Shown in pieces: positions 15,310 to 53,806 of a stretch of DNA of 64,000 bases. The notes under the pieces were generated by a model. The model ran no database searches. It saw only the letters and a program-made list of their open reading frames with translations, and was not told the DNA's origin. Made by a program: the position numbers and the translations under genes. This stretch comes from Parasedimentitalea psychrophila (GTDB taxonomy: Bacteria > Pseudomonadota > Alphaproteobacteria > Rhodobacterales > Rhodobacteraceae): NCBI RefSeq assembly GCF_030285785.1, contig NZ_CP127247.1:2999501-3063500 (forward strand), given 5' to 3'. Positions within the stretch are counted from its first letter, which is position 1; every line of letters begins with the position of its first letter.

Positions 15310-15960
15310 TGGTGTCTGATATTGCAAGGTCTTTCTAGGCCGCTCGTTGAGTTGGCGTGCGACAGCGCTGAGTTTGGCTTGGCTGAAGCCAGATATATCA
15401 GTGCCTTTGGGGAAGTACTGTCTGAGAAGGCGGTTGGTATTTTCGTTGCTCCCGCGTTACCACGGAGACTGAGGATCGCAAAAATAGACATCGATATTCG
15501 TGGCGATGGTGAGTTTTCGATGCCCCGCCATCTCTGATCCGCGATCCCAAGTCAGAGATTTATAGAGCTCCTTGGGAAGCTTTCGTGCTTGTTTTATCAG
15601 GGCTGTCGTCACGCTCTGGGTGTCCTTGTTCGCGACCTTGGCCAGCATCACGAAACGGGAATGGCGTTCAACCAGCGTCGCGATGTAGCTGTTGTTCGAT
15701 CCTGCGATCAAATCGGCATCCTATTAGCTGACAGGTGATGCTTGCATCACCGAGAGGCCAGTGGCCGGGAACGGCACGATCTTCGACCTCAGCCGGGCGG
15801 TCGCTAATCGAAACAGCATTTTTGATTTTGCGCAACTCAAGGCCCTTTTGAGTGGTGTGTCTGGAGCGTCGGATCGCACGTGGGCTGCGCAGACATTCCT
15901 GTAATTCCTTCTTTAAAACCCCTCGGGTTTGGACATAGAGGCTGCGATATATCGTTCTCC
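15310..15960 (-). pseudogene. IS30-family transposase, multiply disrupted
   Basis: On the minus strand most of an IS30 transposase can be followed: YRSLYVQTRGVLKKEL, RPAEVEDRAVPGHW, LIAGSNNSYIATLVERHSRF, NIDVYFCDPQSPW, then GSNENTNRLLRQYF and ARQLNERPRKTLQYQTPAEK. It is broken by a TAA replacing the glutamine of the SPWQRGSN motif near 15465, by a short palindromic insertion at 15721-15757 (within GHWxxDLIAGS), and its 5' end is lost where a second palindromic element and the IS3 element 15985-17215 begin. Not functional. Confidence 0.85.
15721..15757 (-). repeat. Short two-hairpin element inserted in IS30 (37 bp)
   Basis: On the minus strand: CCTCTCGG, inverted repeat TGATGC/GCATCA with loop AA, then CCTGTCAG and a short tail. 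It interrupts the sequence between GGCCACTGG and GATGCCGAT, which when rejoined restores the IS30 motif GHWxxDLI. Confidence 0.65.
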
Positions 15961-15984
15961 TCTCGGGACATTGCTGCGCAATAC
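15959..15984 (+). repeat. Short two-hairpin element, truncated at the IS3 left end
   Basis: CCTCTCGG then GACATTGCTGCGCAAT matches the first two thirds of the 41-bp element at 24585-24625. It stops exactly where the terminal repeat of the IS3 element (TGGACCTGTC) starts, so the insertion sequence appears to have cut it. Confidence 0.55.
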
Positions 15985-16022
15985 TGGACCTGTCCCGCTT
16001 TCGTTCCGCCCCTTGTGCTCAT

Positions 16023-16880
16023 TTAGGCGGCGATCTTTTCAAAAGCCAAGGGACTTTTCCAGCCTAATGCCGAGTGTCTCCGGCGGGGATTATAGAACCC
16101 ATTAATGTACTCGAAGATGGCGATCTCAGCAGCCCTGCGGGTTTGCCAAGAGTGCCGCCAGATCAATTCCGCTTTGATGGTTTTGAAGAAGGTTTCCATT
16201 GCGGCGTTATCATAGCAATTACCCTTGCCGCTCATGGATACCTTGAAGCCATACCGGCGCAGGATTTTCTGGTAATCCTGCGAGCAATATTGGCTGCCCC
16301 TATCAGAATGATGGATGCATCCTTTGGGCGGCCTGCGCAGGGTTATGGCCATGTTCAGCGCCCGTATGGCCAGATCGCGCTTCATCCGGTTGCTGACAGC
16401 CCAACCGACCACGCGCCTGGAGTACAGGTCCAGAACCACGGCCAGATAGAGCCAGCCCTCGCGGGTCCAGATGTAGCTGATATCAACAACCCATTTTTGA
16501 TTGGGTCGATCTGCTGAGAAGTTCCGGTTCAGCAGGTTTGGCGTGATGTTGAACTTGTGATTGCTGTCCGTTGTGGCCTTGTACTTACGGGTTCTGACAA
16601 CAGATATGCCGTTCTGGCGCATCAATCGGCCGACACGGCGGTGACCAATATCCAGACCAAGCTCTTTCAGTTCTTCGACCATTCTCGGTCGGCCGTAGCT
16701 CTGCAAACTCAGGCGGTGCTGCTCCCGGATGTGGGCCAACAGAACCATATCCCCACGTTGACGCTGGCAGGCAGGGCGTTTGCGCCAGGCTCGGTAGCCA
16801 CGTGGGGTGACATCCACAATCCGGCAAAGTCGCTCTGTGGGAATGCTATTGCGGTGCTTTTCAACAAATGAAAACCTCAT
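16023..16880 (-). CDS. IS3-family transposase OrfB
   Basis: A 285-aa integrase-core transposase, uninterrupted. DDE residues: D in KWVVDISYIW, D in CIHHSDRGSQY, E in NAAMETFFKT, followed by the usual FYNPRRRHSALGWKSP tail. It overlaps OrfA by 4 bp in the -1 frame; the A7 run within the C-terminal OrfA region (LLKKATIFF, near 16907-16913) is the probable frameshift site. Expected to act as an OrfAB fusion. Confidence 0.9.
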   Translation of the reverse strand: MRFSFVEKHRNSIPTERLCRIVDVTPRGYRAWRKRPACQRQRGDMVLLAHIREQHRLSLQSYGRPRMVEELKELGLDIGHRRVGRLMRQNGISVVRTRKYKATTDSNHKFNITPNLLNRNFSADRPNQKWVVDISYIWTREGWLYLAVVLDLYSRRVVGWAVSNRMKRDLAIRALNMAITLRRPPKGCIHHSDRGSQYCSQDYQKILRRYGFKVSMSGKGNCYDNAAMETFFKTIKAELIWRHSWQTRRAAEIAIFEYINGFYNPRRRHSALGWKSPLAFEKIAA

Positions 16881-17152
16881 TTGCTTTGGTCCGCAAAGAA
16901 GATTGTTGCTTTTTTTAGCAGCTCCCTCTCCTCACGTAGAAGGCGGTTTTCCCGGCGAAGGCGCTCGTTCTCATTGGCCAGTTCCTGATCCTCTTTCGAA
17001 ACAACGTCCGCGTCACGATAGGTTCTGATCCACTTGCACAGGGTGGACATACCAACCCCAAGATCGGAGGACACCTGTCGGCGGGTCAGCCCGCTGGTCA
17101 GTGCGATCCGCACTGCGTCGCGTTTGAATTCTTCGGATGATCGTGGTGCCAT
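16877..17152 (-). CDS. IS3-family transposase OrfA
   Basis: A 91-aa protein with the IS3 helix-turn-helix (SSEEFKRDAVRIALTSGL, then QVSSDLGVGMSTLCKWI) and a coiled-coil with repeated leucines (NENERLRRENRLLREERELL). GGAGAT precedes the ATG. It binds the element's ends and is fused to OrfB by frameshifting. Confidence 0.9.
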   Translation of the reverse strand: MAPRSSEEFKRDAVRIALTSGLTRRQVSSDLGVGMSTLCKWIRTYRDADVVSKEDQELANENERLRRENRLLREERELLKKATIFFADQSK

Positions 17153-17215
17153 GGTGTATCTCCTTTGGGGCAGAATATGCTCTCAAAGGGGCGGAACAAT
17201 ACCGTGACAGGTCCA

Positions 17216-17805
17216 GCCCGTTTGAAGAAGAGCGTGCGCAGGAGCTGGCCGAGGCTGGCTATGTTGTGCTTGCGGTCGATTATTACGGCGATGGCAAACG
17301 AGCAACCAGTAAGGAGAACGCATTTGCCATGATGGGGGAGTTGAATTCTGATCGAAGTCTTCTGGCTCGACGCATGATCTCAGCTCTTAATGAACTCAAG
17401 CGCCAAAAATCCGTTGATTCCGAACGCATTGGCGCGATGGGCTATTGCCTTGGTGGCAAAGCCGTTCTTGATCTCGCCAGAACTGGCGAGAAATTTGAGG
17501 CTTGCGTGTCTTTACATGGGGTCTATGACGCTCCGCCCAACTCTGTATCATCTATCGTTCCGTCCTTACTTATCCTCCACGGCTGGGAGGACCCACTTGC
17601 AACTCCGGATAACTTCGTATCGCTCGCTTCAGAACTTACATCGAAGTGCCAAGATTGGCAGATGCTATCTTTCGGACATACAGGCCATGCGTTTACCAAT
17701 CCAAATGCTCAAGAGCCCGACGAGGGTATGGCATATAGTCAACGCGCAACCCGCCGATCATGGAATGCGCTGACTGACTTTTTCCACGAGAAACTCGGAA
17801 ATTGA
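17216..17805 (+). pseudogene. Dienelactone hydrolase family protein, 5'-truncated by IS3
   Basis: About 196 residues of an alpha/beta hydrolase of the DLH family remain: nucleophile elbow GYCLGGK with catalytic cysteine, aspartate in HGWEDPLA, histidine in GHTGHAFTNP. The frame runs open into the IS3 end, but the first 30-50 residues of the family (including the first strand and start codon) are missing, so the IS insertion removed the start. The catalytic triad is complete, so a fusion product could only be made by chance from a start inside the IS (17137). Confidence 0.8.
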
Positions 17806-17829
17806 CAGTAAGATAGTTTGTAGGTTTGG

Positions 17830-18010
17830 GCTCGAACCTGCCCTTCGCCGCAGTAGTCACGAATGGCCGCAAAGGGCCGAAAACAACCGTGATGGACGAG
17901 TGAAAGGGCCCAATTGCTGCACCATGCACATTTCGTCACTAAGAGCGGGTTCCGGACCTTCGCTGCGGTCAACTCCAACGGCAGCAATGCGCAGATTGCG
18001 ACCTTTGCAA
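17830..18010 (+). repeat. Dispersed intergenic repeat, copy
   Basis: GGGCTCGAACCTGCCCTTC, GCCGCAGTAGTCACGAATGG, CCGCAAAGGGCCG, then ATTGCTGCACCATGCACAT, CACTAAGAGCGGG, CCTTCGCTGCGGTC and GGCAGCAATGCGCAG. Same two-part layout as 15110-15282. Pieces of the same family (CGAACGGCC, TTCGAGCCC) continue through 18011-18170; no gene is present up to 18310. Confidence 0.65.
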
Positions 18011-18310
18011 AGTTAGCCCCCAGGGCGCGCCGACATGACGCGAACGGCCCTAATCGGACCTTCGTGCTGTACGCGGCGAACGGCTGGTTCGAGCCCTTGG
18101 TGTCGAATACAGCAACGCAGTAATTCTGCAAAGACGGAGGGTTTTCGATCCTTCGCTGCACTGACAACTGATGTCAACACAGCCCACATTCCTGACCTTG
18201 GTCAAATCAATTCAATCGACCTATCCAGCCCAGCGTCTACATTGACGATGAGCCGCCAGTGCGGCTGTGACGGTGCCAGCAGGATTCCTCTGACACGGCG
18301 TTCTGGAAAG

Positions 18311-19339
18311 TCAGGGATTCGGTGTTGGAACGTGCTCGGCGAGAATGTTCTCAGCCTTCAGCTCGGCCCAAAAATCCTGGGGGATGTCATGCGCCATCGC
18401 ATTGATGTTTTGTGCCTGCTGTTCCGGAGAGATGGCGCCGGGAATAACCGAAGCCACGTTGGGGTGTCCAAGCGGAAATTGCAGCGCGGCAGCCGCCAGG
18501 GGAATTTCGTGGCGCTTGCAAACCTCTTCGATACGCCGGACGCGCTTTATTGGCCCGTCTGTTGCCGGTTGGTAGTTGTACATCGCGCCGTCAACGGCGC
18601 CAGTTGCCAGGATTCCGGAGTTATATACGCCTCCGATGACAAATCCCATGCCACGCTCGGCTGCGGCGGCCATTTCGGTATCCAGAACATCGTGGTCCAG
18701 CAATGTATAGACCAGAGCCAGCAGGAAAAAATCCAAATCAACGCAGTCCATGAATTGTTGCATGGTGCCCTTTTGGTTGATACCTGCGCCGATACCTCCG
18801 ATGAGTTTCTGATCCTTCAGGTCGCGCAAGGCGCGATATCCCGATGTATAGAGTTGCGCCATATAGGCGTTGACCTTGGCATCGGACTCGAGATGCCAAT
18901 GGTCGAGATCATGGATCAGAAGAAGATCAATATAAGTGGTCCCAAGGCGTTGAATACTGTCCTCATAAGACCGCATAATCCCGTCATAGGTATAGTCGCG
19001 ACGGTGTTCAAAGGACAAACCACCGATCCAGGGAGACCGGTCCCAAGTGTCCGGATCTTTGGGGAGCGACAACAAGCGTCCGACCTTGCTCGACAACACA
19101 AACTGGTCGCGCGGGCGGCTACGCAGCGCGTGACCGAGGCGCAGTTCACTCAGGCCACGTCCGTACCACGGCGACGTGTCAAAATATCTGATACCGGATT
19201 CCCAAGCCTCTTTGACTGTGTCCTGAGCTTGGTCTTCCGGCAGAGGTCCCCGAAGCTCGCCAACCCCAGCGCCGCCAAAGCCCAACTGGGTCAGGGATAC
19301 CGAGGTGGTTCCGAGGTGCCGTTTTTCAAAAGGGTTCAC
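18311..19339 (-). CDS. Aldo/keto reductase, aldose 1-dehydrogenase type
   Basis: A 342-aa aldo/keto reductase. The catalytic tetrad is visible: D54 and Y59 in YFDTSPWYGRG, K85 in SSKVGRLL, H143 in LLIHDLD. The overall pattern fits the group that includes L-fucose/D-threo-aldose 1-dehydrogenase and pyridoxal 4-dehydrogenase rather than classical aldose reductases. Its start overlaps the stop of the upstream enolase-superfamily gene by 4 bp (19336-19339), so both are co-translated. Oxidation of an aldose to its lactone followed by acid dehydration by the partner is the simplest reading of the pair. Confidence 0.87.
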   Translation of the reverse strand: MNPFEKRHLGTTSVSLTQLGFGGAGVGELRGPLPEDQAQDTVKEAWESGIRYFDTSPWYGRGLSELRLGHALRSRPRDQFVLSSKVGRLLSLPKDPDTWDRSPWIGGLSFEHRRDYTYDGIMRSYEDSIQRLGTTYIDLLLIHDLDHWHLESDAKVNAYMAQLYTSGYRALRDLKDQKLIGGIGAGINQKGTMQQFMDCVDLDFFLLALVYTLLDHDVLDTEMAAAAERGMGFVIGGVYNSGILATGAVDGAMYNYQPATDGPIKRVRRIEEVCKRHEIPLAAAALQFPLGHPNVASVIPGAISPEQQAQNINAMAHDIPQDFWAELKAENILAEHVPTPNP

Positions 19340-20556
19340 TGCTTGGGTCCTTCATTCAGTTTGGACACCCTTACGCGGGCATCGCTGCGCTTGAGCACAT
19401 CGGGATTGAGCGCCATGCCCAATCCCGGCCCGTCAGGCGCGCTGATATGGCCGTTCTTCACCGGCGGCAGAGCCGTCACCAGATCTTGATACCAATCATA
19501 GTAGAAAGCCCGGACCATTTCCTGGATATAGGTATTGGGCGCATGCAGGGCCATATGGGTTGAGACACACAGCGCGACCGGACCTGTACAGTCGTGCCCG
19601 GTAAACGGCAGGCCGTGCGTGTCGCAATACGAAGCAACCTTGCGCGCTTCGGTCAATCCGCCACCCCAGACAATATCCATGATGACAAGGCCGAGATCAC
19701 TCTTTTCGATCAGATCGCGATACTGCGCCCGCCCGCCGAGAAGTTCACCAACCGCGATCGGTGTTTCCGAAACTTCTGTGATTTTCCCCACATTTCCAAG
19801 GTGATCCATGCGAACCGGGTCCTCGATCCATGCCAGATCAAAATCCCTGAGGGCATGGCAGATTTTCTTCGCCGTTGGCACATTCCAGAGAGAATGAAGC
19901 TCGCACATGATGTCTATCTTGTCCCCGACAGCGGCCCGGATTTTCTCGAACGGGACAAGGGCTGTTTTCAGGTCTTGAGTTGAGATATGGGTGCCGCCGT
20001 GGGCTTCGGCCGCGAAATCGAACGGCCAGATCTTCATACCGGTAATGCCCATTTCCAAGAGGCTTTCCGCGACCTCATCAGCCCGGTTGAGAAAGCCTTC
20101 AAGATCTTCATAGGGTCGTTCAACTGCCGCCGCATTGATCCCGAAATTGGCCGAAACCTGGGCCGCAGCCTTGCGGACGTATTGATAGCCCGCACAGGTA
20201 TTATAGACGCGAACTTTGTCGCGCGAGGCGCCGCCGAGCAGTTGGTAAATCGGTTGGTTGCTATAATGCCCCCAAAGATCCCACAGCGCGATATCGACGG
20301 CGGATGTCGCGCGCATCTCGGCCCCAGAGCCGCCACGACCGGTATATCCGGTCATCCGATGCGAATGGCGCTCGATGTCGAGGGCATTTTTACCCAGCAA
20401 GTAGGGCGCAATGAATTCGTGGACATGCGCTTCGACCGCATCCACGCCAAAAAAGGTTTCGCCCAATCCGATCAAGCCCTGGTCAGTTTTGATATGCACC
20501 CAGAGAAGGTTGGGATGCTCTTCAAGGCTAACGGTTTCTACCTCGGTGATCTTCAT
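19336..20556 (-). CDS. Mandelate racemase/muconate lactonizing family protein (sugar acid dehydratase-like)
   Basis: A 406-aa enolase-superfamily enzyme with N-terminal capping domain and C-terminal barrel. Metal ligands are seen as E219 (CELHSLW), E245 (WIEDPVR) and E271 (AVGELLGG); H321 in FTGHDCTGPV is the likely catalytic base, with K175 in GMKIWPFD on the opposite face. The length and H-D-C pattern suggest an acid-sugar dehydratase. It is first in an operon with the aldo/keto reductase. A LysR regulator lies 885 bp upstream in the opposite direction. Substrate not determinable by eye. Confidence 0.87.
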   Translation of the reverse strand: MKITEVETVSLEEHPNLLWVHIKTDQGLIGLGETFFGVDAVEAHVHEFIAPYLLGKNALDIERHSHRMTGYTGRGGSGAEMRATSAVDIALWDLWGHYSNQPIYQLLGGASRDKVRVYNTCAGYQYVRKAAAQVSANFGINAAAVERPYEDLEGFLNRADEVAESLLEMGITGMKIWPFDFAAEAHGGTHISTQDLKTALVPFEKIRAAVGDKIDIMCELHSLWNVPTAKKICHALRDFDLAWIEDPVRMDHLGNVGKITEVSETPIAVGELLGGRAQYRDLIEKSDLGLVIMDIVWGGGLTEARKVASYCDTHGLPFTGHDCTGPVALCVSTHMALHAPNTYIQEMVRAFYYDWYQDLVTALPPVKNGHISAPDGPGLGMALNPDVLKRSDARVRVSKLNEGPKQ

Positions 20557-20756
20557 GGTTTGGTTTCCTGTCAGCAGCCGGTCTGATTGGTCAAAATTGA
20601 CTGTAGATTCATAACTGCCTTTTGTCCCAAGCGGTTAATGTTTTCTGAAACCGGTGGCCGGTAGACCTTTCAACGCAACAAAGGGACATTGGAATTCTTG
20701 GGCGAGAAGCACAATTGCAGAATTTGGTTTGGCTATGAAGGAAGGGCAAATATGGG

Positions 20757-20960
20757 CCGTGAACGCCATAGTCCGCTATACGACCCAACGGCAGCAATAT
20801 GCGCTTTTGAGACATCGGTGCCAAGCGCAGCGAAGGTCGGCAATCCGCCCTTTGTGCTCCATATGCCGCGTCATGCTGCACCCAGTACGAATGTCGTAGA
20901 AGGGCTGAGAGCCGCCGTTAGACGAGTTTGTCACGAACGGCAGGTCAGGGCCGTTCGCTA
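20757..20960 (-). repeat. Dispersed intergenic repeat, inverse copy
   Basis: Read on the minus strand: CGAACGGCCCTGACCTGCC, then GTGACAAACTCG, CTTCTACGACATTCGTACTG, GGTGCAGCATGACGCGGC, AAAGGGCGGATTGCCGACC, TTCGCTGCGCTTGGCACC and GCATATTGCTGCC. This mirrors the layout of the plus-strand copies. The rest of 20557-21441 contains no gene; the AT-rich 21300-21440 probably holds the LysR gene promoter. Confidence 0.6.
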
Positions 20961-20967
20961 CATTTAT

Positions 20968-22359: not shown

Positions 22360-22530
22360 GGACAAATTCTGAGCAAACCCAGATGGAAGCGATCAGAGTT
22401 GTCGAAATTGCAAGGATCGAACAAGGTCCGGAGTCGGCGCTTTACATCAAAGTAGGTGCTATGCAGGGGCCATCCACACATGCCGTTGGACGCAATCTGG
22501 TCGAGTCCGGTCAGGGTCGAAGTACCAGTA

Positions 22531-24236: not shown

Positions 24237-25070
24237 GGGACGACAGCGACGGAAATATACGGACGATTATAAGGCTGCGGCAGTTGAATGACTTTATGAG
24301 CCTAGTGCGACGCAGGGTAGCGTGTCGAGCGAGCTTGGGATCACCGGCACACAGCTGAAGACGTGGCGGCTTGAGGTAGAGACGTTTGGTTCAACAGAAG
24401 CCAAACGCCGTCAGAAGGCGGATGCGATTGAACTGGTCCGCCTTCGCAAAGAGAACAAGCGTCTTGCTGAGAAAGTGGCGATTTTGGATTGAGCCGGAAC
24501 GGGGACCGATCCGGGGACCGATCCGGGGGATCGTTATCCCGGTGAAAGCATCCGCTTTTTTCGCAACGAGGGCGGTGAAACCATCCCTCTCGGGACATCG
24601 CCTTGCAATGCCCTGCCGGGCAGCGGACGAACAAGCACAGCTTCGTCACGGCCCACAAAGCGCAATATGCGGTTTCCACATTATGCCGACACCTCAAGAT
24701 ATCCCGAAGTTGGTTCTATGGCTTTCTGACCAGTCAGGACACCCGCGATCAGCGGCTTGTCATCCGTGAAGCGCGGGATCTGGAGTTGCTGCCAAAGATA
24801 AAGGCGTTTTTCAAAGCCAGCGGGAAATGCTATGGGTCCAAGCGCATTCATCAGGATCTAATGGCTGATGGTGAGATCGCTTCTGAGCGGCGTGTGGCGA
24901 TAATAATGAAAGAAAACAAGGTGTCTCCGCTTCTGCGTAAGCGCCGAAAGCCCAAAACCACTGACAGCAAACACGACATGAAGCCTTCACCAAATCTACT
25001 GGAGCAGAAGTTCAACTGCCAGACGCCCAACACCGTTTGGCTGGCGGATATTACCTATATCGACACTCGG
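24237..25070 (+). pseudogene. IS3-family element remnant (OrfA and OrfB), interrupted by the 1192-bp IS
   Basis: OrfA begins MGRQRRKYTDDYKAAAVE, meets an in-frame TGA, then continues SVSSELGITGTQLKTWRLE and a coiled coil (VRLRKENKRLAEKVAIL). OrfB follows in part: KHSFVTAHKAQYAVSTLCRH, GKCYGSKRIHQDL, ending at NTVWLADITYIDTR, where the second IS copy is inserted at 25071. A 41-bp palindromic element sits in the OrfB start (24585-24625), and a 12-bp direct duplication (CCGGGGACCGAT twice) lies near 24500. Just beyond the IS, at 26268-26320, a short transposase tail (LKMAA then stop) remains, and is repeated at 36305-36355. Confidence 0.8.
24585..24625 (+). repeat. Short two-hairpin element in an IS3 OrfB (41 bp)
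   Basis: CCCTCTCGG, imperfect inverted repeat CATCGC/GCAATG with loop CTT, then CCTGCCGGGCAG and CG. It separates the transposase coding sequence GTGAAACCAT from GACGAACAAGCACAGC. Confidence 0.75.
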
Positions 25071-36371: not shown

Positions 36372-36626
36372 TCACTCTGGCGCAAGCAGCCTGCCGAGAC
36401 GGCATCACCGTGCTGTACAAGCGTATGCCGCGTTTCTTTGATGAGTTGGAACTGGCCCATGGCCCTTCTCGGTGATTGCTTTGCAATCGCCTGCCGGGCA
36501 GCGGACGACTGGGGGCCTGATCGTCTCAATGCCAGTCAGCGGCGCGATCTGATGGAAATTGTCGAAGACAGATCAGAGGTTGAACGGCGACTTCGGGCCG
36601 TTTCTAGCAAGCGCTGGTGGGTGTAG
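36372..36626 (+). pseudogene. IS21-family IstB helper remnant with palindromic element
   Basis: TVLYKRMPRFFDELELAHG, then after a 41-bp palindromic element DWGPDRLNASQRRDLMEIVE, both parts from the AAA ATPase IstB. In IstB proteins about 15-20 residues normally separate these blocks (containing Walker B), so the element sits at a deletion junction. The C-terminal remainder is lost after EDRSE. Confidence 0.8.
36463..36503 (+). repeat. Short two-hairpin element in IstB (41 bp)
   Basis: CCCTTCTCGG, perfect inverted repeat TGATTGC/GCAATCG core with loop TTT, then CTGCCGGGCAG. Flanked by GCCCATGG on the left and GACGACTGGGGG on the right. Confidence 0.75.
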
Positions 36627-41006: not shown

Positions 41007-41683
41007 CGGCTTTGTTGCACAAATCTGTCGAATGGATTCATGTTGTGAATCCAGTGTGATAACTGGCGGTGATGAGCAGCTGGACACCAACGACTTACAA
41101 GACCAAGAACTGGTCGGATTACCATCGTGCCCTGAAGCAGGCCTACAGCGATGCGGCCATACAAGCATGCTTGACCATCAAAGTGCTGTTCGGTTTGCCT
41201 TTGCGGCAGGCGACCGGGTTTGTGGAACGCCTGCTGGAATTGGCCGGGCTGGATTGGACGGTGCCGGACTTCAGCACACTGTGCCGGCGCCAGCGGACGT
41301 TTGTCAATCCCAGTGCAAAATGGGTCAGCTTCCCGGAGTGATATGGGACAGTTTGTTTGGGAGTTGGCGGCGCCTTGGCGCGTGTGCTTTTCATATAGCT
41401 GACGCGTGCCATGGCGCGCTGGCCGCAGGCCAGCACCTCTCTTTTTCCGGGTTGGATTTCAGCTTCTGGTTCTGCGGCTCTGGCGCATTGAGACAAAAAT
41501 GCACTGTGTGAAACTGCTCGGTCAGCGCCTCTCTGCGCGGGACTTCGAGCGCCAGGTTGCCGAGATCCAAATTCGCGCCGCGATCCTCAACGGCTTCACT
41601 GCGCTTGGCATACCCGAAACTGTTATCGTAGGATAAATCCGTCTGGGGTAAGGGGGAGGCCAACCTCAGGCCGGTTTGTGCAA
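41007..41683 (+). pseudogene. IS5-family element remnant with internal replacement
   Basis: Terminal repeats TTTGTTGCACAAATC (left) and GGTTTGTGCAAC (right, inverse) mark the ends. The transposase N-terminus (PTTYKTKNWSDYHRALKQ, then YSDAAIQACLTIKVLFGLPL, VPDFSTLCRRQRT) and C-terminus (RIETKMHCVKLLGQRLSAR, then AEIQIRAAILNGFTALGIP) survive. Between them, 41310-41485 is an unrelated 175-bp stretch with a GCTGGCC-GCA-GGCCAGC hairpin in place of the catalytic core. A small deletion near the start joins ALKQ to AYSDA. Confidence 0.82.
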
Positions 41684-42090
41684 CATCTGTAACCGCCCCA
41701 TGCGCAAGAGGTCTTTTCAGAGCTGACTTTGACGCGTCGTCAGGTGCTGACATATGTCCGGCCTCTCGTGCGGCGTCATACATGCCGCGGGCCCGTATGG
41801 TGTTCGAAAGTCGGGTCCAGATCAAAGCCGCGTGCTCGTAGGCACTCTGTTGCACACTGGTTCTCCCGATCCCGTCTCACGACCGTTGCGCCATCCATCG
41901 CCCGGCAACACATGTGCAGCATGTGTGAGAGGGATGTTAGCAAGTGCCACGCGCACAAGCATCGGTGGCTTGCGCAACAACATTCCGTCCATCCATGTGC
42001 CCGGCCGCGCCAATGGATGGACATGCCGCTTTATGATAACGCTGTTGGCTCCAATGATCAGCAATCGCCTCAGTGATCGCTCTCCTGTCC

Positions 42091-42122
42091 CACGGCAGGT
42101 GATGCTGGCATCACCGATAGGG
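42091..42122 (-). repeat. Short two-hairpin element in IS110 (32 bp)
   Basis: On the minus strand CCCTATCGG, inverted repeat TGATGC/GCATCA, loop CA, then CCTGCCGTG. Removing it joins ACGACGAAGATG to GGACAGGAGAGC, restoring the IS110 order KQRLGxxxKMGxES-LRRLL. Confidence 0.75.
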
Positions 42123-42497
42123 CATCTTCGTCGTCGCCCCGCCCCAAGACGCTGCTTTCCACCTGTCGAATGCTGTCGCGGCAGTGTGGGGCGGAGCGAG
42201 GGCAACCAAAGCCGTGGCGATCAACGGTCTAATGCCCATTGTCTGGCAGGGTATGTTTCCATGCCCGAGAGGGGGAATTGTCATCAGCCGACGCGCCACC
42301 TCATTCTCCTTGGCGCGTCGACGGATCTCGGCATCCAGTTTGCCGATCTGGTCATCGAGACGGGTCTCTGTCTCGATCAGGACCAGCAATGTTGGGCGAG
42401 CTTCGTCGGGCAAGCCACTTGCTGCGTCCTCTACGATCGCAATCAGGCGTGCGGCATTCGCTGCCCCCTTTGGAATCACCTCTCCGAACTCCGTCCT

Positions 42498-42538
42498 CCT
42501 CTCGGCTGATTGCGTTGCAATCGCCTGCCGGGCAGTGG
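42498..42538 (+). repeat. Short two-hairpin element in IS110 (41 bp)
   Basis: CCTCTCGGC, inverted repeat GATTGC/GCAATC with loop GTT, then CCTGCCGGGCAG. Antisense to its host gene. It separates the N-terminal third of IS110 from the FGEVIPKGAANAA segment. Confidence 0.75.
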
Positions 42539-43033
42539 GTGGCCGCATCATGCCAAGAGCGTGTTTACAACACGACGCGCATTGATCACCTGGGTGCGTT
42601 GCCGGATCAGCAACTCACGGACCCGGAACACACCTCTCATGGTTTGCAAGCAAACCACTGCCGGGCAAGGCATGGCCGCGCCCTGCACATCTTCGTTTTT
42701 AACCGACACGAAACGCATCGACGGGCGCGCAGCTGCTTCACTAATCGCTTCAGCCTCAGCCATGTCGTTCTTCTGGCGTTTGACGAAGGGCTTGACGTAG
42801 GCTGGCGGGATCAAACGTACCTCGTGGCCCAACTTGGCGATCTCGCGGCCCCAGAAATGAGCGCCGCCGCAGGCTTCCATCGCAACGATGCATCGTGGAA
42901 GTTGGCTAAAAAACACCAGAACCTGCGTCCGCCGCAATGTCTTGCGCAGCACCGCTCGGCCTGCGCCGTCAGCTCCGTGAACCTGAAACACATTCTTCGT
43001 CAGATCGAGCCCGACTGTGATAATCTCCGACAT

Positions 43034-43384
43034 GACCGCTCTCCCTTGTGGATCATTGCAGACCCACCTTGGCACATCGATGCCGTTGGGGGCGGTTACA
43101 TCATCAAAGCCGGTAGCCGTCACTGTTGTCAGCTCTCCCTTTCCGCATGCCGTGCGGGGTCCTCTGGTTCAGGGTGGTTACTGAGCTCGTGATCTGGTTG
43201 ACCAAAGTTGCCGCCGTGGCCATTCGCCGTTGTCGGCCCAACTGGCGCGAACGGCCCTAACGTTTGAAGAATGGGACAGAGTCATTTCGATACCCTCCCA
43301 AATGATGGTGAGGGGTATCTGAAATATCTCCTGTGGGCTTGTCTCTGCTGCAATCATTCTATTTGCAGGGATTGCCAGAGCCGG
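43034..43384. other. Gene-free stretch upstream of IS110
   Basis: No gene recognised. 43195-43265 has GCCGTGGCCATTCGCCG and CGAACGGCCCTAACG, pieces of the dispersed intergenic repeat. Confidence 0.4.
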
Positions 43385-46781: not shown

Positions 46782-46788
46782 CAGAGAA

Positions 46789-47724: not shown

Positions 47725-48980
47725 TGCGCGGCTTTCCACTTGGCATGTTCTTTCGTCAGGAAGCCTGCCCATTCATCGGCAAGATCCTGTGCACTGCGCT
47801 GACCCAACAGGGCCTCTTGTGCAGTTTCAATCACCATCGTGCTGCCAAAGTAGCCCCATTGCTCCAGATAGGTCGGCATGATCGTTGGCTCATACTGGGC
47901 ACCGTTCAGCTCGTCGAACCAGCCCTTGAACTGCTCGGTCTGGAAATGCGGATCTTGATCTGCACCTTCGTGGATCGGGATCACTCCAACGTGCTTTGAC
48001 CATGTTGCGTTTGCATCCGGAGTGGACAATGCCGCGACCAGGTTCCAGGCGTCGTTTTCATGTTCGGTCGACTTGAACACGGACCAGCCAGCAAATCCAA
48101 TAGTCGGAAATGCCTTGCCCGACGGGCCCGTTGGCATCGGGATAACTGCAAAATCTTCGGCTGGCATACGCTCGGAAATTGCGATCAGTGCATCCGGGTC
48201 CTGATCCAGGAAGGCGCAGGTGCCCGAATAGAAACCGGCGACGATTTCATTGAAGCCCCAGTTGACACTGTCCCTGGGCGCATAGCCGTTCTGGTACATA
48301 TCAAGCAGGAACTGGATGCCTTCGACCGAGCCGGGTTCATTCAACCGGCTTTTGCCGTCTTCGGTGAAAAATTCATTGGTGCCATTCATCACGGCCGCCA
48401 TCATGATCCAGCCATTGGTGCCACCGGGGCCGCCACGCAGACAATATCCCGATTTACCTGGCAGCGCGGAAACCATCTTTGAGGCCTCCATGAATTCAGC
48501 CATCGTCGCGGGAGGGCCCTCGACGCCGGCTTCAGCGAGCAATTTTTTGTTGTAGAACATGGCGCGCAGATAGAACCCGTAAGGGATCATATAGGCATCA
48601 CCAGACTGGCGTGCCATATCCAGCGTTTTCTGCGTCAGGGTGTCGCCGTGGTCCCAGCCCGCAATGTGCTCCTCAAGACTGGCCAACTGGTCAGAACCCG
48701 CATAAAGCGCCAGCCAAGAGTCGGGCATTTCGACAACATCGGGAACATCGCCCCCCGCCACCATCGTGGCCAGCTTTTCAAATGCCTGCCCCCAAGGCAG
48801 GCTAATGATTTCTACGGTGACGCCGTCATTCGCGGCTTCATAGTCGTTCACCAGTGCCTGCAACGTTTCCGTGCGCGACGGGCTGGTGATGACCTCGACC
48901 AGTTTCAGTGTTGTGTCCGCATATGCCGATGACGCCATCAGTGTCGCGGCAAGCCCTATACTTTTGAAGAGATGTCTCAT
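47721..48980 (-). CDS. ABC transporter substrate-binding protein, family 1
   Basis: A 419-aa periplasmic binding protein. The ATG at 48980 follows GGAGGAAAC; the signal peptide is KSIGLAATLMASSAYA. Family-1 pattern: LPWGQAFEKLATMVAGGDVP, DVVEMPDSW, YMIPYGFYLRAMFYNKKLL and GWSVFKSTEHENDAWNL. This fold binds sugars, sugar alcohols or glycosides. Being co-transcribed with a cystathionine-family enzyme, the ligand could contain sulfur or an amino group, but that is speculation. Confidence 0.9.
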   Translation of the reverse strand: MRHLFKSIGLAATLMASSAYADTTLKLVEVITSPSRTETLQALVNDYEAANDGVTVEIISLPWGQAFEKLATMVAGGDVPDVVEMPDSWLALYAGSDQLASLEEHIAGWDHGDTLTQKTLDMARQSGDAYMIPYGFYLRAMFYNKKLLAEAGVEGPPATMAEFMEASKMVSALPGKSGYCLRGGPGGTNGWIMMAAVMNGTNEFFTEDGKSRLNEPGSVEGIQFLLDMYQNGYAPRDSVNWGFNEIVAGFYSGTCAFLDQDPDALIAISERMPAEDFAVIPMPTGPSGKAFPTIGFAGWSVFKSTEHENDAWNLVAALSTPDANATWSKHVGVIPIHEGADQDPHFQTEQFKGWFDELNGAQYEPTIMPTYLEQWGYFGSTMVIETAQEALLGQRSAQDLADEWAGFLTKEHAKWKAAQ

Positions 48981-49020
48981 GTTTCCTCCGGTTGGTAATG
49001 TGGTTTTTTTTGGTGTCGCG

Positions 49021-50181
49021 TTACGCGGCACTCTTGCTCAGGGCCGACTCAAAATCGGCCCAAAGGTCGTCAACATTCTCCAGCCCAAGGCTGATCCGCA
49101 TCAGCGACGGCGAAACGCCGAACCGCTGCATCGAATTTTCTTCGCCAGCCTGTGCAAGTGCCACCCGCGCGGGCAGTATCAGGCTCTCAAAACCGCCCCA
49201 ACTGACCCCCAGCCGGAACAGGCTTAGCGCATCGGACAGGCGCGGAATGTCTATGCTATCGTCCAGTTCGAATGACATCAGGCCAGAGCGCCCGCGTAGA
49301 CCCGGTACCGAATTTGCACCGGGTGAATGCACCCGCGTCACGCAGGGCAAATTCGACAACCGGTCAACAAAGGTATTCGCCGTGGCCTGATGCTGCTGCA
49401 TTCGCGCGTCCAGCGTACGCAGGCCACGCGTGAGCAGGAAGGCCTCAAACGGAGCCAATTTTGCACCCAGCAGGGGCAAGGTCAGATCACGGATCTGGTC
49501 GATCAGTTCATGCGACGACACAACAACACCGGCCACGGTATCCGAATGTCCCGATATGAATTTTGAGGCCGAGTGAACGACGATATCAATCCCCAGTGTT
49601 AGCGGGTTCTGAAAAATGGGTGTGGCCCAGGAATTGTCGATCACAGTCAGCGCACCATGGCGCCGCGCGTGCTCTGCCACCTTGGGCAGGTTCATCGGCT
49701 GGAACACCACCGAATTGGGGCTTTCCAGATAGGCTAGCGTGACACCTTTTAGCAGATCGGGATCGTTCTCAAAGGCAGCGATCGGATGATACGAGACCTC
49801 AACGCCGAAAGGTTTCAGCAGCCGTTCAAACAGACGATACGCATCAGGATAGGTATGCTCGACACAGGCAATATGGTCGCCGGGTTTGACCAAAGCGAAA
49901 ATGGTCGAAGAAATTGCAGCCATACCCGAGGCAAAACCAACGGCGGCCTCGCCGCGTTCGGCTGTTGCCATCAGCGCCTCAAATGCGGCAACGGTCGGGT
50001 TTTGCACACGGGTGTAGATGGCAGTGTCGCTGCGGCCCGCCATCCGGTCCTCAAACGCCTGATAACTGTCAAAAGTGAACAGCGAGCTTTGCACGATCGG
50101 TGGCGTGACAGAGCCATGTGCGCCGCCAAAGGCAGCCGCCAATAGTGTCGAAATTTCCTGGCTTTCAAATTCGCTAGTCAC
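49021..50181 (-). CDS. PLP-dependent Cys/Met metabolism enzyme (cystathionine gamma-synthase/beta-lyase family)
   Basis: A 386-aa fold-type I PLP enzyme. PLP lysine in HSASKFISGHSD (residue about 205), the preceding DNSWATP aspartate and asparagine, the RVQNPTVAAFE phosphate-binding block and the tail pattern GVSWGGFESL with the substrate arginine in LMRISLGLEN. These are shared by cystathionine gamma-synthase, beta-lyase and methionine gamma-lyase, so the reaction (C-S lysis or replacement) is clear but not the substrate. It starts inside the regulator's 3' end (8-bp overlap) and is followed 40 bp later by the binding-protein gene. Confidence 0.87.
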   Translation of the reverse strand: MTSEFESQEISTLLAAAFGGAHGSVTPPIVQSSLFTFDSYQAFEDRMAGRSDTAIYTRVQNPTVAAFEALMATAERGEAAVGFASGMAAISSTIFALVKPGDHIACVEHTYPDAYRLFERLLKPFGVEVSYHPIAAFENDPDLLKGVTLAYLESPNSVVFQPMNLPKVAEHARRHGALTVIDNSWATPIFQNPLTLGIDIVVHSASKFISGHSDTVAGVVVSSHELIDQIRDLTLPLLGAKLAPFEAFLLTRGLRTLDARMQQHQATANTFVDRLSNLPCVTRVHSPGANSVPGLRGRSGLMSFELDDSIDIPRLSDALSLFRLGVSWGGFESLILPARVALAQAGEENSMQRFGVSPSLMRISLGLENVDDLWADFESALSKSAA

Positions 50182-50932
50182 TTTTCTGACCCTTCATCAC
50201 TTTGAGAACTTCCTGCTCTACCATGTCGCAAATTTCGGCAGACAATTTAGCAGCGGCATCGACATCGCCGGCGGCAATCGCCTCGGCCAATGGACGATGC
50301 AGGGGGATGCTGGCCTGACCCAGATGTGGCGTGCCAAACGGTGTTTTGTAGATGTCGTGAAACGCGCCGTGGATCTGCGAAATCAACTGTTGAAACAGTG
50401 GATTTCCGGACGCCTCATAGATCGCGCCATGAAACCGTGCATCGGCTGGACGCCAGTCTTCGTTGGCCTCGTACACCGCCAACAGCTCGGCCATTCTCGC
50501 GATGATCACCTTGCGTTGCTGATCGGTTGCCAGCCGGGTGGCAATCTTTACCGCCTCGATCTCCAGCGGGCGACGAACGGCATGGGTTCGCAGCAGGCTT
50601 TCGGCCTCGACCTTTAGGGTCAATGGAATTCGGATGGACGTTGTTGAAATCTCGGCGGCTAGGGTCGTGCCCGCACCTTTATTGCGCACCACGATACCCA
50701 TGCCCTGCCAGGCCTTTAGCGCCTCGCGAATGGTGGAACGTCCCACATTCAGACGGCGGGCCAGTTCAACCTCGGGCGGCAACCTGTCGCCAACCTGAAG
50801 GTTCGCAGCCTCGATCATTTCAACCAATGCGTCCAGCACACCGCGTCCGGATTCCAGCGGCTGAAGATGCCGCAGCAGATCCTCAGCGGCGGCCGCTTTC
50901 GTCTGTTTAGTCCTAGGGTGGTTGTCCGACAC
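50174..50932 (-). CDS. GntR-family regulator, FadR/FCD subfamily
   Basis: About 252 residues from a GTG near 50932 with AAGGGG upstream. N-terminal winged helix (LPPEVELARRLNVGRSTIRE, then ALKAWQGMGIVVRNKGAGTT) and a C-terminal all-helical FCD ligand domain with the metal-binding D-x3-H pattern (ADARFHGAIYEASGN) and later histidine region (PLHRPLAEAI). In-frame sequence extends to 51061 but would run into an IS30 remnant and through two operator-like sites, so a later start is preferred. Probably controls this operon and responds to a small acid. Confidence 0.82.
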   Translation of the reverse strand: MSDNHPRTKQTKAAAAEDLLRHLQPLESGRGVLDALVEMIEAANLQVGDRLPPEVELARRLNVGRSTIREALKAWQGMGIVVRNKGAGTTLAAEISTTSIRIPLTLKVEAESLLRTHAVRRPLEIEAVKIATRLATDQQRKVIIARMAELLAVYEANEDWRPADARFHGAIYEASGNPLFQQLISQIHGAFHDIYKTPFGTPHLGQASIPLHRPLAEAIAAGDVDAAAKLSAEICDMVEQEVLKVMKGQKSD

Positions 50933-51004
50933 GTAGTGGCCCCTTGGTTGGCGAGTCGGTGTACCATTGTCTTTGTCAGACATTATGTCAACATTGTCTG
51001 ACAT
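50923..51004. promoter_or_regulatory. Three FadR-type operator-like sites at the regulator start
   Basis: TTGTCAGACAT at about 50973-50983 and TTGTCTGACAT at about 50994-51004 are 21 bp apart (two helical turns); TTGTCCGACAC lies at about 50923-50933, over the proposed GTG start. All fit the TNGTNNNACNA consensus of FadR/FCD regulators. This suggests autoregulation of the operon. Confidence 0.65.
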
Positions 51005-51027
51005 TGCCACACCAGAGGCACGGCAAA

Positions 51028-51240
51028 GAGTTGGCTGACCATCAAAGACTGACGCTGGCAACAGATGTCGACGTCTATTTTTGCGGCCCCCAGTCTCCCC
51101 TCACGGCAGATTGCTCTGCAATCGCCTGTCAGGCAATGCGTGGCAGCGCGGATCAAATGGAAACACCAACAGGCTGCTGAGGCAATATCTACCGCGCGGA
51201 ACCGATCTCTCTGTCCCGATAAACGAACCGGGAAGCCGCG
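51028..51240 (+). pseudogene. IS30-family transposase remnant with palindromic element
   Basis: ELADHQRLTLATDVDVYF-C-x-PQSP, a 41-bp palindromic element, then GSNGNTNRLLRQYLPRGTDL in another frame. Rejoined, the sequence gives the IS30 motif CGPQSPWQRGSN. Only the middle part of the gene survives. Confidence 0.82.
51099..51139 (+). repeat. Short two-hairpin element in IS30 (41 bp)
   Basis: CCTCACGGCA, inverted repeat GATTGC/GCAATC with loop TCT, then GCCTGTCAGGCAATGC. Removing it joins CAGTCTCC to GTGGCAGCG, exactly the normal IS30 sequence. 41 bp is not a multiple of three, so the gene is frameshifted. Confidence 0.8.
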
Positions 51241-51558
51241 CGCTTTGCCCTATTCGCGCAACAAAGTTACTGTGCGGGCATCCTGTAGGGCGCAATCCTA
51301 GTCATGCCGGTCCCGATAGCAGGATTAATCAGCACCTCGAAGCTAGGCGTTGAGCCCTGGGTGCGCGTTGGATGATATAGGCAATCACGAACACCATTCC
51401 GAACCTGTGGCATCTGGCTTTCCGAAGCCGGATAACTCGACAACCTGAGGATTCAGACTAATTTTGCGACATTACTCTTAATATTCTCCGGGGGTAGAGC
51501 CAGCTTAGTTTGTCGATCGGGACGTTGCCCCCAAATTCAAGTAGAAAGGTGACTGCGA
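51241..51558. other. Intergenic region upstream of the DUF2092 gene
   Basis: No gene recognised beyond the fading IS30 sequence. 51460-51545 probably contains the DUF2092 promoter and an AAGTAGAAAGGTG ribosome binding site. Confidence 0.4.
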
Positions 51559-52365
51559 ATGTTTTGGATGTCCAAAAACTTACTTACATCTGTCACGGGA
51601 AAATTGTCAGGCCCGGCGGCAATATTGGTGCTCGGGTTGATTGCACCTGCCGAGACTTTAGCGGACGAAGCAGATGCTAGGTCCATTTTGAAATCCATGT
51701 CGGACTACGTTGCCTCTCAGGACGCGATTTCATTTGGGTTTGACGCAAATCTTGAAGTCGTGACAAAAGACGGCCAGCGCCTTGCCCTAGCCAGTTCAGG
51801 AACAGTTTCATTGAATCGCCCTGAGAATTTTCATACGGCTCGTGCAGGCGGCTTTGCGGATATAGAGACGTTTTTCGACGGCAAAACTCTGACGTTACTT
51901 GGGAAAACGGCGAACGTATATGTGCAGGTTGATGCCCCCGGTTCGGTCGATGACCTGGTAGAAATGATGGAGACCAAGCTTGACCGATCTCCACCGGCCG
52001 CCCACCTGATATTGTCAAACTCTTATGATCAATTGATGCAGGGGGTGACGAATGTGAAAGACTTGGGCAGCGGTGTGATCGGCGGAGTAGAATGCGATTT
52101 CCTTGCATTCCGCGCAGATGAAGTTGACTGGCAGATTTGGATCGCTCATGGCGATAAACCATACCCATGCCGCTATGTGGTAACGTCCAAGAAAATTGCC
52201 GGTGCGCCGCAATACAGCATCCAGATCAACAATTGGGCAACTGGCAGCGATGTAATAACGGAAGAATTCACTTTTGAGAACACAACAGATGCTACTCAGA
52301 TCGACGTTGCAGATCTGCGCAGTAAGATGAGCGAACTTCCAGGCCATTTTAAGACGGGAGAATAA
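51559..52365 (+). CDS. DUF2092 family exported protein
   Basis: A 268-aa periplasmic protein. Signal peptide with core ILVLGLIAPAETLA; the mature part follows the DUF2092 pattern (ARSILKSMSDYVASQDAISF, GTVSLNRPENFHTARAGGF, FFDGKTLTLLGK, then LRSKMSELPGHFKTG at the end), a fold related to the LolA/RseB lipoprotein-binding half-barrels. Possibly binds lipid or lipoprotein. A 63-codon gene follows after 2 bp. Confidence 0.85.
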   Translation: MFWMSKNLLTSVTGKLSGPAAILVLGLIAPAETLADEADARSILKSMSDYVASQDAISFGFDANLEVVTKDGQRLALASSGTVSLNRPENFHTARAGGFADIETFFDGKTLTLLGKTANVYVQVDAPGSVDDLVEMMETKLDRSPPAAHLILSNSYDQLMQGVTNVKDLGSGVIGGVECDFLAFRADEVDWQIWIAHGDKPYPCRYVVTSKKIAGAPQYSIQINNWATGSDVITEEFTFENTTDATQIDVADLRSKMSELPGHFKTGE

Positions 52366-52367
52366 CA

Positions 52368-52559
52368 ATGAGTGTATCGAGAAAACTGGGACTGATTGTG
52401 CTTACATATGTGTTGGCATTTGGCGGTCTGGAACTTGGTGAACGATTGTCCGTTTCTGGTATTCACAGTTATGTTTCGACTGCTGAGGCAACAGTTGGTC
52501 GGCCCCTGACACCGGTCAGTGTCGCGGGCGTGGCCCGAAGGAACAACCGGCGAAAATAG
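52368..52559 (+). CDS. Small exported basic protein downstream of DUF2092
   Basis: A 63-aa protein with a hydrophobic N-terminal helix (LGLIVLTYVLAFGGLEL) and a basic tail (TPVSVAGVARRNNRRK). Its place 2 bp after the DUF2092 gene and the AGVARRxxRR ending, which I recall from similar partners, suggest a functional pair. Function unknown. Confidence 0.65.
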   Translation: MSVSRKLGLIVLTYVLAFGGLELGERLSVSGIHSYVSTAEATVGRPLTPVSVAGVARRNNRRK

Positions 52560-52599
52560 GCTAAGGGCCGGGTTTGGACCAGTAAATCGCTGCGGTTTG

Positions 52600-52745
52600 A
52601 ACGAACGCCGGGTCAGGGCCGTTCACTTGGGTTGTAATGGCTGCTCTCGGTGCATTGTTCATGCTCAGTGCAGCACTTTGTAGAATGGGTTCGAACCCGC
52701 CCTTCGCCGCAATGGTCATGAACGGCAGGTGTGGGCCGTTCGCTC
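52600..52745 (+). repeat. Dispersed intergenic repeat, divergent copy
   Basis: Contains CGCCGGGTCAGGGCCGTTC, GTGCAGCACTTTGTAGAAT, GGGTTCGAACCCGCCC, TTCGCCGCAATGGTCATGAA and CGGCAGGTGTGGGCCGTTCG, matching parts of the copies near 17830 and 20880. Confidence 0.55.
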
Positions 52746-52750
52746 CAGTT

Positions 52751-53286
52751 TCACTGATCCCTGTGCCGGTCTGGAAGGCCCGCTAAGCCGCCGCAGGCAC
52801 CGTGAACAACGAGGTCACTTCACCAACAGGCGAGCCCTTCCGCATCGACAACTCGACGTTGACACCGCTGTCTATCACGGGCCGGGGAGGGCGGCGCAAA
52901 GTAAGCTCGGGTCGACCCCAAAACTAAGCGCAATAACCGCAGTCTGGCTCCGGAGGTCTGTTCGAATGGCGGCATTAGTTTTCGATCCGATCCGAGATTT
53001 CCTTACATGCGATTTCCATAGCAGGCCGAAGCGCATCCAAAGATGGCCGGGTATATCTCTGCCCGGTTATCGACAGCGGCGTATGGTTCAGCAACCGACC
53101 AACGATCTCTTCCAGAACTCCAGCTTCCATCGGACTGTCGCAAATGTCCTGCGATGCATGTGCGGGTTGAATTTGAGCCTTTCCGGCTTGGTGATGTGCC
53201 CTGCCACTGATTTTGGAGACGGAAACACCCATTGATGGCTGAGAGGGCGCAGCGGTGTCAGGATCTCATGTTGTACCTGGAGGATA
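52751..53286. repeat. 536-bp direct repeat, copy B
   Basis: TCACTGATCCCTGTGCCGG to TGGAGGATA corresponds base for base in length to 22531-23066. Right of it the sequence switches to IS66 at 53290, so the integrase homology ends there. Confidence 0.85.
52975..53286 (-). pseudogene. Integrase 3'-end fragment
   Basis: About 105 codons of the tyrosine integrase C-terminus in two frames: LRPLSHQWVFPSPKSVAGH, PHMHRRTFATV, shift, then GRLLNHTPLSITGQRYTRPS. It contains HxxR, H and the nucleophile Y but not the first arginine. The frame change is at the same point as in 22755-23830. Confidence 0.85.
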
Positions 53287-53299
53287 CTTGCGCTGACTG

Positions 53300-53806
53300 T
53301 GCCGGGCCACGACATCGTGAACCAAATCATCCGCCCGCGTTTGGCCTGCGATCATGTGCTGGCGGGTCAAACCATCTTCATGCCCTCTCGGCAGATTGCT
53401 GCGCAATCGCCTGCCGGGCGACAGACGACACCACCGTCGGGCTATTACAAAAGGGCAATGGCAAAGGGCGCAACAAGACGCCTGTGGGTCAATGCCAGAG
53501 ATGAACGCCCTTGAGGCGGTACAGCGCCACCCGCCGCTTGGTATTCGTTCTCCACCAGTCGGGGTGCGGAGCACCCCAGCCAACATCTGCAAACATATGA
53601 GGGCTTTGCCCATGCGGATGCCTATGCAGGCTACAACGACCTCTATCGCACAGGGCGGGTGACAGAGATGGCCTGCAAGCTTAACCGCGTAAACCCAGAG
53701 GCCTGGTTTGCTTGGGTGCTGGAACGCATCCAAGACCATCCCGTCAGCCGTATCAACGAGCTGAAGCCATGGGAGTATCAGGCTGTAATCGAGACCCAAA
53801 AAGCTT
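53300..53806 (+). pseudogene. IS66-family transposase (TnpC) remnant
   Basis: HVLAGQTIFM, a palindromic element, DDTTVGLLQKGNGK, then in shifted frames WVNARDERP and QHLQTYEGFAHADAYAGYND, and the typical end NRVNPEAWFAWVLERIQDHP, then RINELKPWEY. About the last 170 codons with several frameshifts. Confidence 0.85.
53383..53423 (+). repeat. Short two-hairpin element in IS66 (41 bp)
   Basis: CCCTCTCGGCA, inverted repeat GATTGC/GCAATC with loop TGC, then GCCTGCCGGGCGACA. Removing it joins ATCTTCATG to GACGACACC, giving the IS66 sequence TIFMDDTTV. Confidence 0.8.

Follow-up and report, generated by a model that had tools for sequence, protein, structure and literature searches.

What is a short, hairpin-forming sequence doing inside the transposase genes of several unrelated insertion sequence (IS) families? 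The question is raised by a 64,000-nucleotide stretch of the 5.0-Mb genome of Parasedimentitalea psychrophila (G000:C1:2999501-3063500; hereafter, the window), in which an initial annotation had reported eight copies of a 32-41 bp two-hairpin sequence, all in or at the edge of broken transposases. Our results suggest, with a probability that we put at roughly 0.6, that these copies belong to a family of non-autonomous palindromic mobile elements of the repetitive extragenic palindrome (REP) and GC-cluster kind, which is nested in transposons, is moved by an enzyme acting in trans and has spread by riding on insertion sequences.

All eight of the reported stretches are present where they had been placed. 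A covariance model built from ten copies, a check that the annotation had asked for, recovered six of them; the remaining two (15721-15757 and 42091-42122) have degenerated and do not appear in the list of 18 matches of this model (R1). Three further copies had been missed, all in a decayed IS110: two were detected by model R1 and one by a finder that needs both ends plus a stem, and this single IS110, at approximately 41.4-43.1 kb (41400-43100), carries five elements. The finder, which skipped real copies at 24585 and 51098, returned five hits in the window, as against a mean of 0.2 in five single-base shuffles.

The element is approximately 34 to 45 bp long, a somewhat wider range than first described. 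It begins with a conserved CCCTCTC and ends with a conserved CTGCCGGGCARYG (that is, CTGCCGGGCA, followed by A or G, C or T, and G), and neither end is an inverted repeat of the other. Between them lies a stem whose letters vary while its self-complementarity is kept, with many stem types, including GATTGC/GCAATC, CATTGC/GCAATG, CATCGC/GCGATG, TGGTTTGC/GCAAACCA, GCATGT/ACATGC and TCGATAC/GTATCGA. Specifically, a perfect stem of at least 5 bp was present in 51 of 66 distinct end-pattern matches, which had been taken without any requirement on the middle before the stem test, compared with an average of 4.7 (at most 9 across 50 trials) for shuffled middles. Further, stem letters change on both sides: across 22 distinct 33-mers and 35 distinct 37-mers, all stem-selected, most positions show several pair types (for example, CG 14, GC 12 and TA 6 at one position). 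Sites L122, L198 and L192 were left out of this count, as well as of the frame-continuity, stop-codon and catalytic-motif tests below, and L117 and L123 additionally of this count. Rfam gave no match above the gathering score in the window. Site L007 (G000:C1:3461293-3461331) has a palindrome of greater length, TGTCACCCGGCAGATTGC...GCAATCACCTGCCGGGTGACA, which appears to be related to the element but symmetrical.

Across the genome as a whole there are at least 121 copies, a figure composed of 93 model matches (E<=0.001) and 28 end-pattern matches outside the model's list; of the 133 matches to the model, the 12 weakest were left out of the tabulated copies. The end pattern CCTCTCN{10,26}CTGCCGGGCA had 89 exact matches in the genome, against one for the reversed pattern. 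It was also matched in 20 of 60 relatives, most often in G007 (59), G014 (32), G006 (29) and G020 (17), although some of the single matches lack a hairpin and thus not all are true. With a stem required, the matches listed came from Ruegeria, Halocynthiibacter, Roseobacter, Sedimentitalea, Puniceibacterium, Pseudophaeobacter and other Rhodobacteraceae, along with single records of Cohaesibacter, Vreelandella and a Rhodospirillales bin. Two subtypes used as queries in similarity searches hit 87 and 16 plasmid records, for which annotation rows were mostly empty and the gene table excluded pseudogenes; 43 of the 87 were from Pseudosulfitobacter. A phage collection yielded one partial match, and the end pattern alone, with no hairpin filter, occurred in at least 120 viral-contig stretches (L383-L462 and others).

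Where an empty sister transposon exists, the insertion is precise, occurs in either orientation and leaves no target duplication. The annotation had proposed looking for such empty sites, and they were found in IS1111, IS3 and IS30; because of these empty sisters, the element must be regarded as an insert rather than as a native IS part. Specifically, five near-identical IS1111-type elements in this genome each carry two copies, one within the transposase gene and the other in 3' noncoding DNA, and an intact relative in genome G002 (84% identical) is empty at both sites, with an alignment gap of 41 bp at each. An IS3 found at six places in G020 (C1) carries four inserts in orfB, two per orientation, all four of which occur in both copies examined and two of which were detected by pattern at all six places. 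Relative to plasmid IS3 of Rhodobacteraceae SC52 and Pseudosulfitobacter that are annotated as coding, these four inserts are the only gaps in the coding part. Among the matches listed, no other copy in that genome exceeded 74% for the last 96 residues of this IS3. The IS30 insert measures 37 bp when set against copies of this genome that lack it, and a single base next to it is altered in 7 of 7 carriers compared. In the window itself, istB similarity breaks off exactly where the element starts (36463) in 7 of the 10 records listed (of 53), and removing the insert at 53383-53423 rejoins the IS66 motif IFM/DDTTV.

The target is short and asymmetric. An upstream preference for ATG or CATGG, as first proposed, was not borne out; the constant neighbour is instead GA(T/C), directly 3' of the element. 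Over 96 sites (seven of them false hits that were kept in this count), G came first in 69, A next in 56, and T or C next in 76. Sites without a true hairpin (L197, L203, L213, L234, L237, L248 and L260) were removed before subsequent fragment analysis.

Confinement to mobile DNA was assessed in 20 evenly spaced 20-kb sample windows (400 kb). The finder located 15 elements in 7 of the 20, and model matches fell in the same seven. Six of these seven have similarity to our IS library somewhere along their 20 kb. The seventh (L339) had no library hit; Pfam matched its sister site to IS110 and a neighbour lying just beyond its boundary to a DDE transposase. Taking L339 as IS-bearing, elements occurred in 7 of 8 IS windows versus 0 of 12 others (Fisher P 1e-4), the 12 windows without IS signal amounting to 240 kb, of which 24.5 kb lie outside open reading frames. 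An even spread, which the annotation had named as the result that would tell against its proposal, was thus not found in this sample. Pfam searches of 40 fragments (30 picked as best supported and 10 as doubtful, nearly all within 600 nt of elements and not all interrupted by one) returned transposase or integrase-core domains in 25, a helix-turn-helix only in 3, phage or phage-integrase domains in 3, other domains in 2 (LysR, peptidoglycan binding) and nothing in 7. Overall, sites span many unrelated transposase families and IS noncoding DNA, and rarely lie beside phage-type genes. The claim of insertion only in transposase genes therefore holds in that the DNA is largely mobile, but fails for the copies in IS noncoding DNA, for one that abuts a phage-integrase fragment and for two near phage-type genes; the broader proposal, that this is a miniature mobile element that favours a short target, is supported. 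Sites outside classical IS include L144 (near a portal-type phage gene, below the Pfam cut-off), L183 (near a Mu-like gp27 gene) and L057 (abutting a tyrosine-integrase fragment).

Some sites hold different hairpins in different copies. At the LLI/DS site of IS5, the element is 41 bp here and 39 bp in G013, Leisingera and Loktanella; the IS1111 noncoding site has three hairpin types in four lineages; and the IS1111 coding site has, within this genome, two hairpins among copies that are approximately 99% alike. Thus, hairpins have been replaced or sites have been hit again. Among IS30 carriers here, the letters immediately around the insert are common to the carriers and the distant parts are mosaic, a pattern in the sequences suggesting that recombination between IS copies probably moves insertions too. 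In two such IS30 mosaics (L378, L379), one right half is approximately 13% diverged and the left half of another approximately 25%. At L048 (around 1280-1390), an IS3 seems to have lost approximately 75 codons, and an element appears by eye to lie on the deletion junction, as recombination between two elements would leave it.

The carriers are not uniformly dead. Shared insertions have multiplied with their carrier in IS1111 (five copies), in the IS3 of G020 (six) and in IS30 (six), and four annotated, stop-free transposase genes contain a 39-bp in-frame insert (13 codons). Two of these are IS5 genes, from Leisingera methylohalidivorans and Loktanella salsilacus, which carry 39 bp at the same point, share 72% nucleotide identity and show a ratio of nonsynonymous to synonymous substitution rates (dN/dS) of approximately 0.13; the others, an IS256 of Sulfitobacter indolifex and an IS66 of Tabrizicola piscis, have their in-frame inserts elsewhere. 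The in-frame IS5 genes, whose products would be putative transposases with 13 extra residues, provide the clearest case against uniform death of the carriers. The annotation had named, as grounds against the proposal, intact transposons with the sequence as their native part; stop-free genes do carry the element, yet empty sisters of IS1111, IS3 and IS30 contradict its being native. Many other carriers are dead, including one IS3 group with an orfA stop, deletions and several elements.

We propose that the moving step would be performed in trans by an enzyme that recognizes a folded single strand. HUH/Y1 transposases act on folded single strands at the ends of REPs and of IS200/IS605 elements, and the absence of target duplication, the short asymmetric target and the conserved fold with free sequence together point to recognition of folded single-stranded DNA. 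Once inserted, the element would persist in transposons because it may be nearly harmless there, given that it has few stop codons in any frame and that its 39-bp forms can be read through, and it would spread as its host insertion sequences move.

Several points weigh against this reading. First, an IS-library hit occurs within 150 bp of only 5 of the 15 elements in the sample, and the library, having been built from element-bearing IS, may miss other IS. Most of the remaining ten were assigned to mobile DNA through Pfam domains in neighbouring or sister fragments (IS110, IS3 and IS5 types; an integrase at L349), and one through its alignment with an IS1111 end. Around sites L005 and L138, there is no sign of an IS. 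Second, the folds of single elements surpass those of shuffled sequences by only a modest margin (z -1.29 to -2.64). The low stop count over six frames (mean 0.79 in 117 distinct elements, versus 1.98 +/- 0.11 in matched random hairpins, with 0 of 300 random sets as low), which fits an element shaped by being read, comes from elements that share ancestry. Third, frame-breaking lengths are common, so that many carriers probably lost their transposase and were moved in trans. Frame continuity differed only weakly overall between exact removal and removal with a shift of +1 or +2 (n=123): the counts were 75, 67 and 62 when 40 or more codons were required on each side, 46, 33 and 40 when 60 were required, and 15, 15 and 16 when 80 were. 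Fourth, in a search of this genome and 36 others (11 of the 37 have Y1), the Y1_Tnp domain, the one enzyme family searched for, had no match in either this genome or G020, and none of the 12 Y1 loci inspected elsewhere had an element beside the gene, with isolated 7- or 8-letter matches only. A link to a REP-associated tyrosine transposase (RAYT) or other Y1 enzyme was rejected on these grounds, and the earlier suggestion of an RNA-guided or RAYT-linked process likewise found no evidence in this search, which did not extend to other linked genes. No longer autonomous element with the family's ends turned up, although no systematic search was made. Finally, movement is deduced from the presence and absence of copies rather than from any insertion that was watched, and neutral tolerance could explain part of the bias toward mobile DNA.

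Neutral accumulation is the alternative that survives best, although we consider it unlikely as a full account. Under it, a REP-like element would insert anywhere and survive only in dispensable DNA, namely, the dead transposons of an IS-rich genome. The richness of decayed IS in copies agrees with this (five in the IS110 of the window, and three, by eye, within approximately 450 bp of an IS3 remnant), as do the at least 15 copies of one IS3 with 302-aa open frames and no stops, and the occurrence of some copies near phage-type genes. Yet intergenic DNA is often dispensable and is the usual place of REPs, and not one element was found in the 24.5 kb of such DNA in the 12 sample windows without IS signal; nor would dead carriers include four annotated stop-free genes with the element in frame.

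A dedicated hyperparasite is a more ambitious proposal, and we hold it to be rather doubtful. Here, a recombinase would insert the hairpin only into mobile DNA, often beside catalytic codons, and the sequence would be shaped for read-through or bypass in any frame, such that the host transposon stays active and carries the hairpin with it. Catalytic motifs adjoin 13 of 99 sites, compared with 298 of 5674 control GAY positions (5.3%; P 0.002), an enrichment that is only a lead, the motif list having been drawn up after the sites were seen.

It is less probable still that the inserts are bypassed, spliced or precisely excised, in the manner of the bypassing elements of yeast mitochondria, so that interrupted transposases are still made. 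The IS1111 gene has an unbroken 339-aa frame in 4 of 4 full copies when the 41 bp are skipped, with two nonsynonymous and six synonymous changes (P 0.004; copy 452k, whose start is absent from the fetched stretch, was left out), and the nearest listed copy here that is uninterrupted at that point is 76% alike, partial and stop-bearing. Similarly, the four frame-breaking inserts of the G020 IS3 are accompanied by no other gap in the coding alignment, at six places, and IS30 carriers show 25 nonsynonymous to 50 synonymous changes (P 9e-15; 135 to 88, P 3e-7, when copy 3639k, whose ends do not align and whose row has four stops, is included). However, the IS1111 case amounts to eight changes. The IS30 constraint is weakened as proof of function by the uninterrupted copies that coexist with the carriers and by the recombinant mosaic nature of the copies, from which it can come. 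Mobilization in trans by an intact copy since lost would explain the remainder. Both orientations occur within genes, which an RNA signal does not easily allow and which weakens RNA-level removal as a general rule.

A host defence that marks and silences transposons with hairpins, as the initial annotation had considered, is very improbable. Confinement to transposons, frequent frame breaks and the adjacency of some sites to catalytic residues, with the same post hoc motif list, would suit such a role, but copies with shared insertions have multiplied, some carriers are stop-free, 39-bp forms keep the frame and, in sequence, the elements form a diversifying family (the search did not include linked defence genes). 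Least credible of all is that certain IS possess the hairpin as a built-in structural part, such as an IS1111 noncoding RNA, and were the source of the other copies: four diverged IS1111-like noncoding ends carry a hairpin at the same point, but of three types, and the empty G002 copy contradicts it.

The copies of the window are collected in Table 1. Their host genes were supported for IS66 (by Pfam), the IS21 istB, the IS30 on both sides of 15721-15757, IS110 and the IS3 at 24585, the last identified through sister copies; the IS30 identity at 51099 comes from a WQRG motif read only by eye. The copy at 42632-42670 falls within an IS110 protein match listed without stops (G000:C1:3042069-3042527). 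At 15958-15990, an IS3 end (GGACCTGTC) follows inside the element copy, which is why the copy at 15958-15984 is short, and transposons therefore also insert into elements.

Table 1. Element copies in the 64,000-nucleotide window (positions count from its first base)
Feature	Position	Strand	Remarks
Degenerate copy, IS30 remnant	15721..15757	-	Stem TGATGC/GCATCA, tail lost; IS30 protein matches both sides
Copy shortened by IS3 end	15958..15984	+	26.4 bits; longer sisters at 4135961, 4181082
Copy in IS3 remnant	24585..24625	+	55.0 bits; cluster of 3, same site at 3792997, 4144383
Copy in IS21 istB	36463..36503	+	57.2 bits
Copy in decayed IS110, previously missed	41896..41933	-	Finder hit 41899-41932, 7-bp stem, 2 end mismatches
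Degenerate copy in decayed IS110	42091..42122	-	Stretch of the initial annotation
Probable degenerate copy in decayed IS110, previously missed	42239..42273	-	Weak: 14.7 bits, E 0.054
Copy in decayed IS110	42497..42537	+	60.6 bits
39-bp copy in decayed IS110, previously missed	42632..42670	+	17.5 bits; finder 8-bp stem TGGTTTGC/GCAAACCA
Copy in stretch read by eye as IS30	51098..51138	+	54.3 bits; PQSP/WQRG
Copy in IS66 transposase, directly before DDTTV	53383..53423	+	58.7 bits; IS66 Pfam match downstream

A search of a collection of papers listed no description of this hairpin family. The nearest kinds are the CGTC REPs of alphaproteobacteria, the Rickettsia palindromic elements (RPEs) and the GC clusters of yeast mitochondria, and its location, end structure and lack of duplication set the family apart from each. 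According to Di Nocera et al. 2013 (PMC3733652), CGTC REPs, including Rickettsia RPE-4 and RPE-6, are 20-40 bp palindromes with variable stems that lie in genes in some species and have no known dedicated transposase; their 8-9 bp stem almost always starts with AT, with a 4-5 nt loop and a CCA-type tail, and they are mostly head-to-head dimers and mostly intergenic. The present family resembles these in being a short palindrome with many copies (at least 121) and a kept, variable stem, but differs from that description in its two long conserved ends, its residence in transposons, a stem that does not start with AT and the lack of a CCA-type tail. REPs of the GTAG and CGTC classes carry that tetranucleotide at the foot of the stem; in the present family, the letters preceding the element on the reverse strand are mostly C(A/G)TC, which belong to the target and adjoin a conserved end rather than the stem. 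Unlike REPs generally, the elements are not mainly extragenic and were found mostly in or near IS. With RPEs, they share a palindromic insert in frame within a gene (the two IS5, the IS256 and the IS66), although RPEs are described as occurring in many host protein genes, whereas the fragments near elements here match mainly transposase families.

Outside bacteria, the GC clusters of yeast mitochondria (GC42) are hairpin-forming repeats of approximately 40 nt, some families of which have a conserved end and a varied remainder, that are partly exchanged by flank recombination, are mostly intergenic and are flanked by AG or ACT direct repeats (PMC4478555). The family is likewise a short palindromic repeat of mobile type with a kept fold; in contrast to them, it leaves no duplication, has no AG or ACT direct repeats and sits in IS. 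The translational bypassing elements of Magnusiomyces mitochondria are short, frame-disrupting block inserts that hit 12 of 15 protein genes and are corrected in translation (PMC5009743). Our family shares with them the form of frame-disrupting block inserts within genes; the data that bear on any skipping here are the constraint statistics of IS1111 and IS30.

Two further classes of bacterial DNA offer likenesses. GTAG REPs with RAYTs and miniature IS200/IS605 derivatives combine hairpins, no target duplication and a short asymmetric target, as the family does, but this genome and G020 have no Y1_Tnp match, and no Y1 gene was flanked by the repeats at the 12 loci inspected. Miniature inverted-repeat transposable elements of DDE transposons are, similarly, small non-autonomous mobile DNA; they have terminal inverted repeats and a target duplication, whereas the family has no terminal inverted repeats and, in the empty-site comparisons, no duplication.

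The family sits chiefly in transposons of marine Rhodobacteraceae, with some copies in frame within otherwise intact genes. It would thus be a further layer of mobile DNA, formed by approximately 40-bp elements living inside insertion sequences. If insertion itself, and not selection, is what restricts it to mobile DNA, then some enzyme tells transposon from host DNA, which would be a new mode of recognition of mobile elements. Sites that are empty, filled or filled differently, in and out of frame, form a natural series in this family, which makes both REP-like mobilization and the tolerance of short structured inserts in genes testable in marine bacteria, several of which are cultured.

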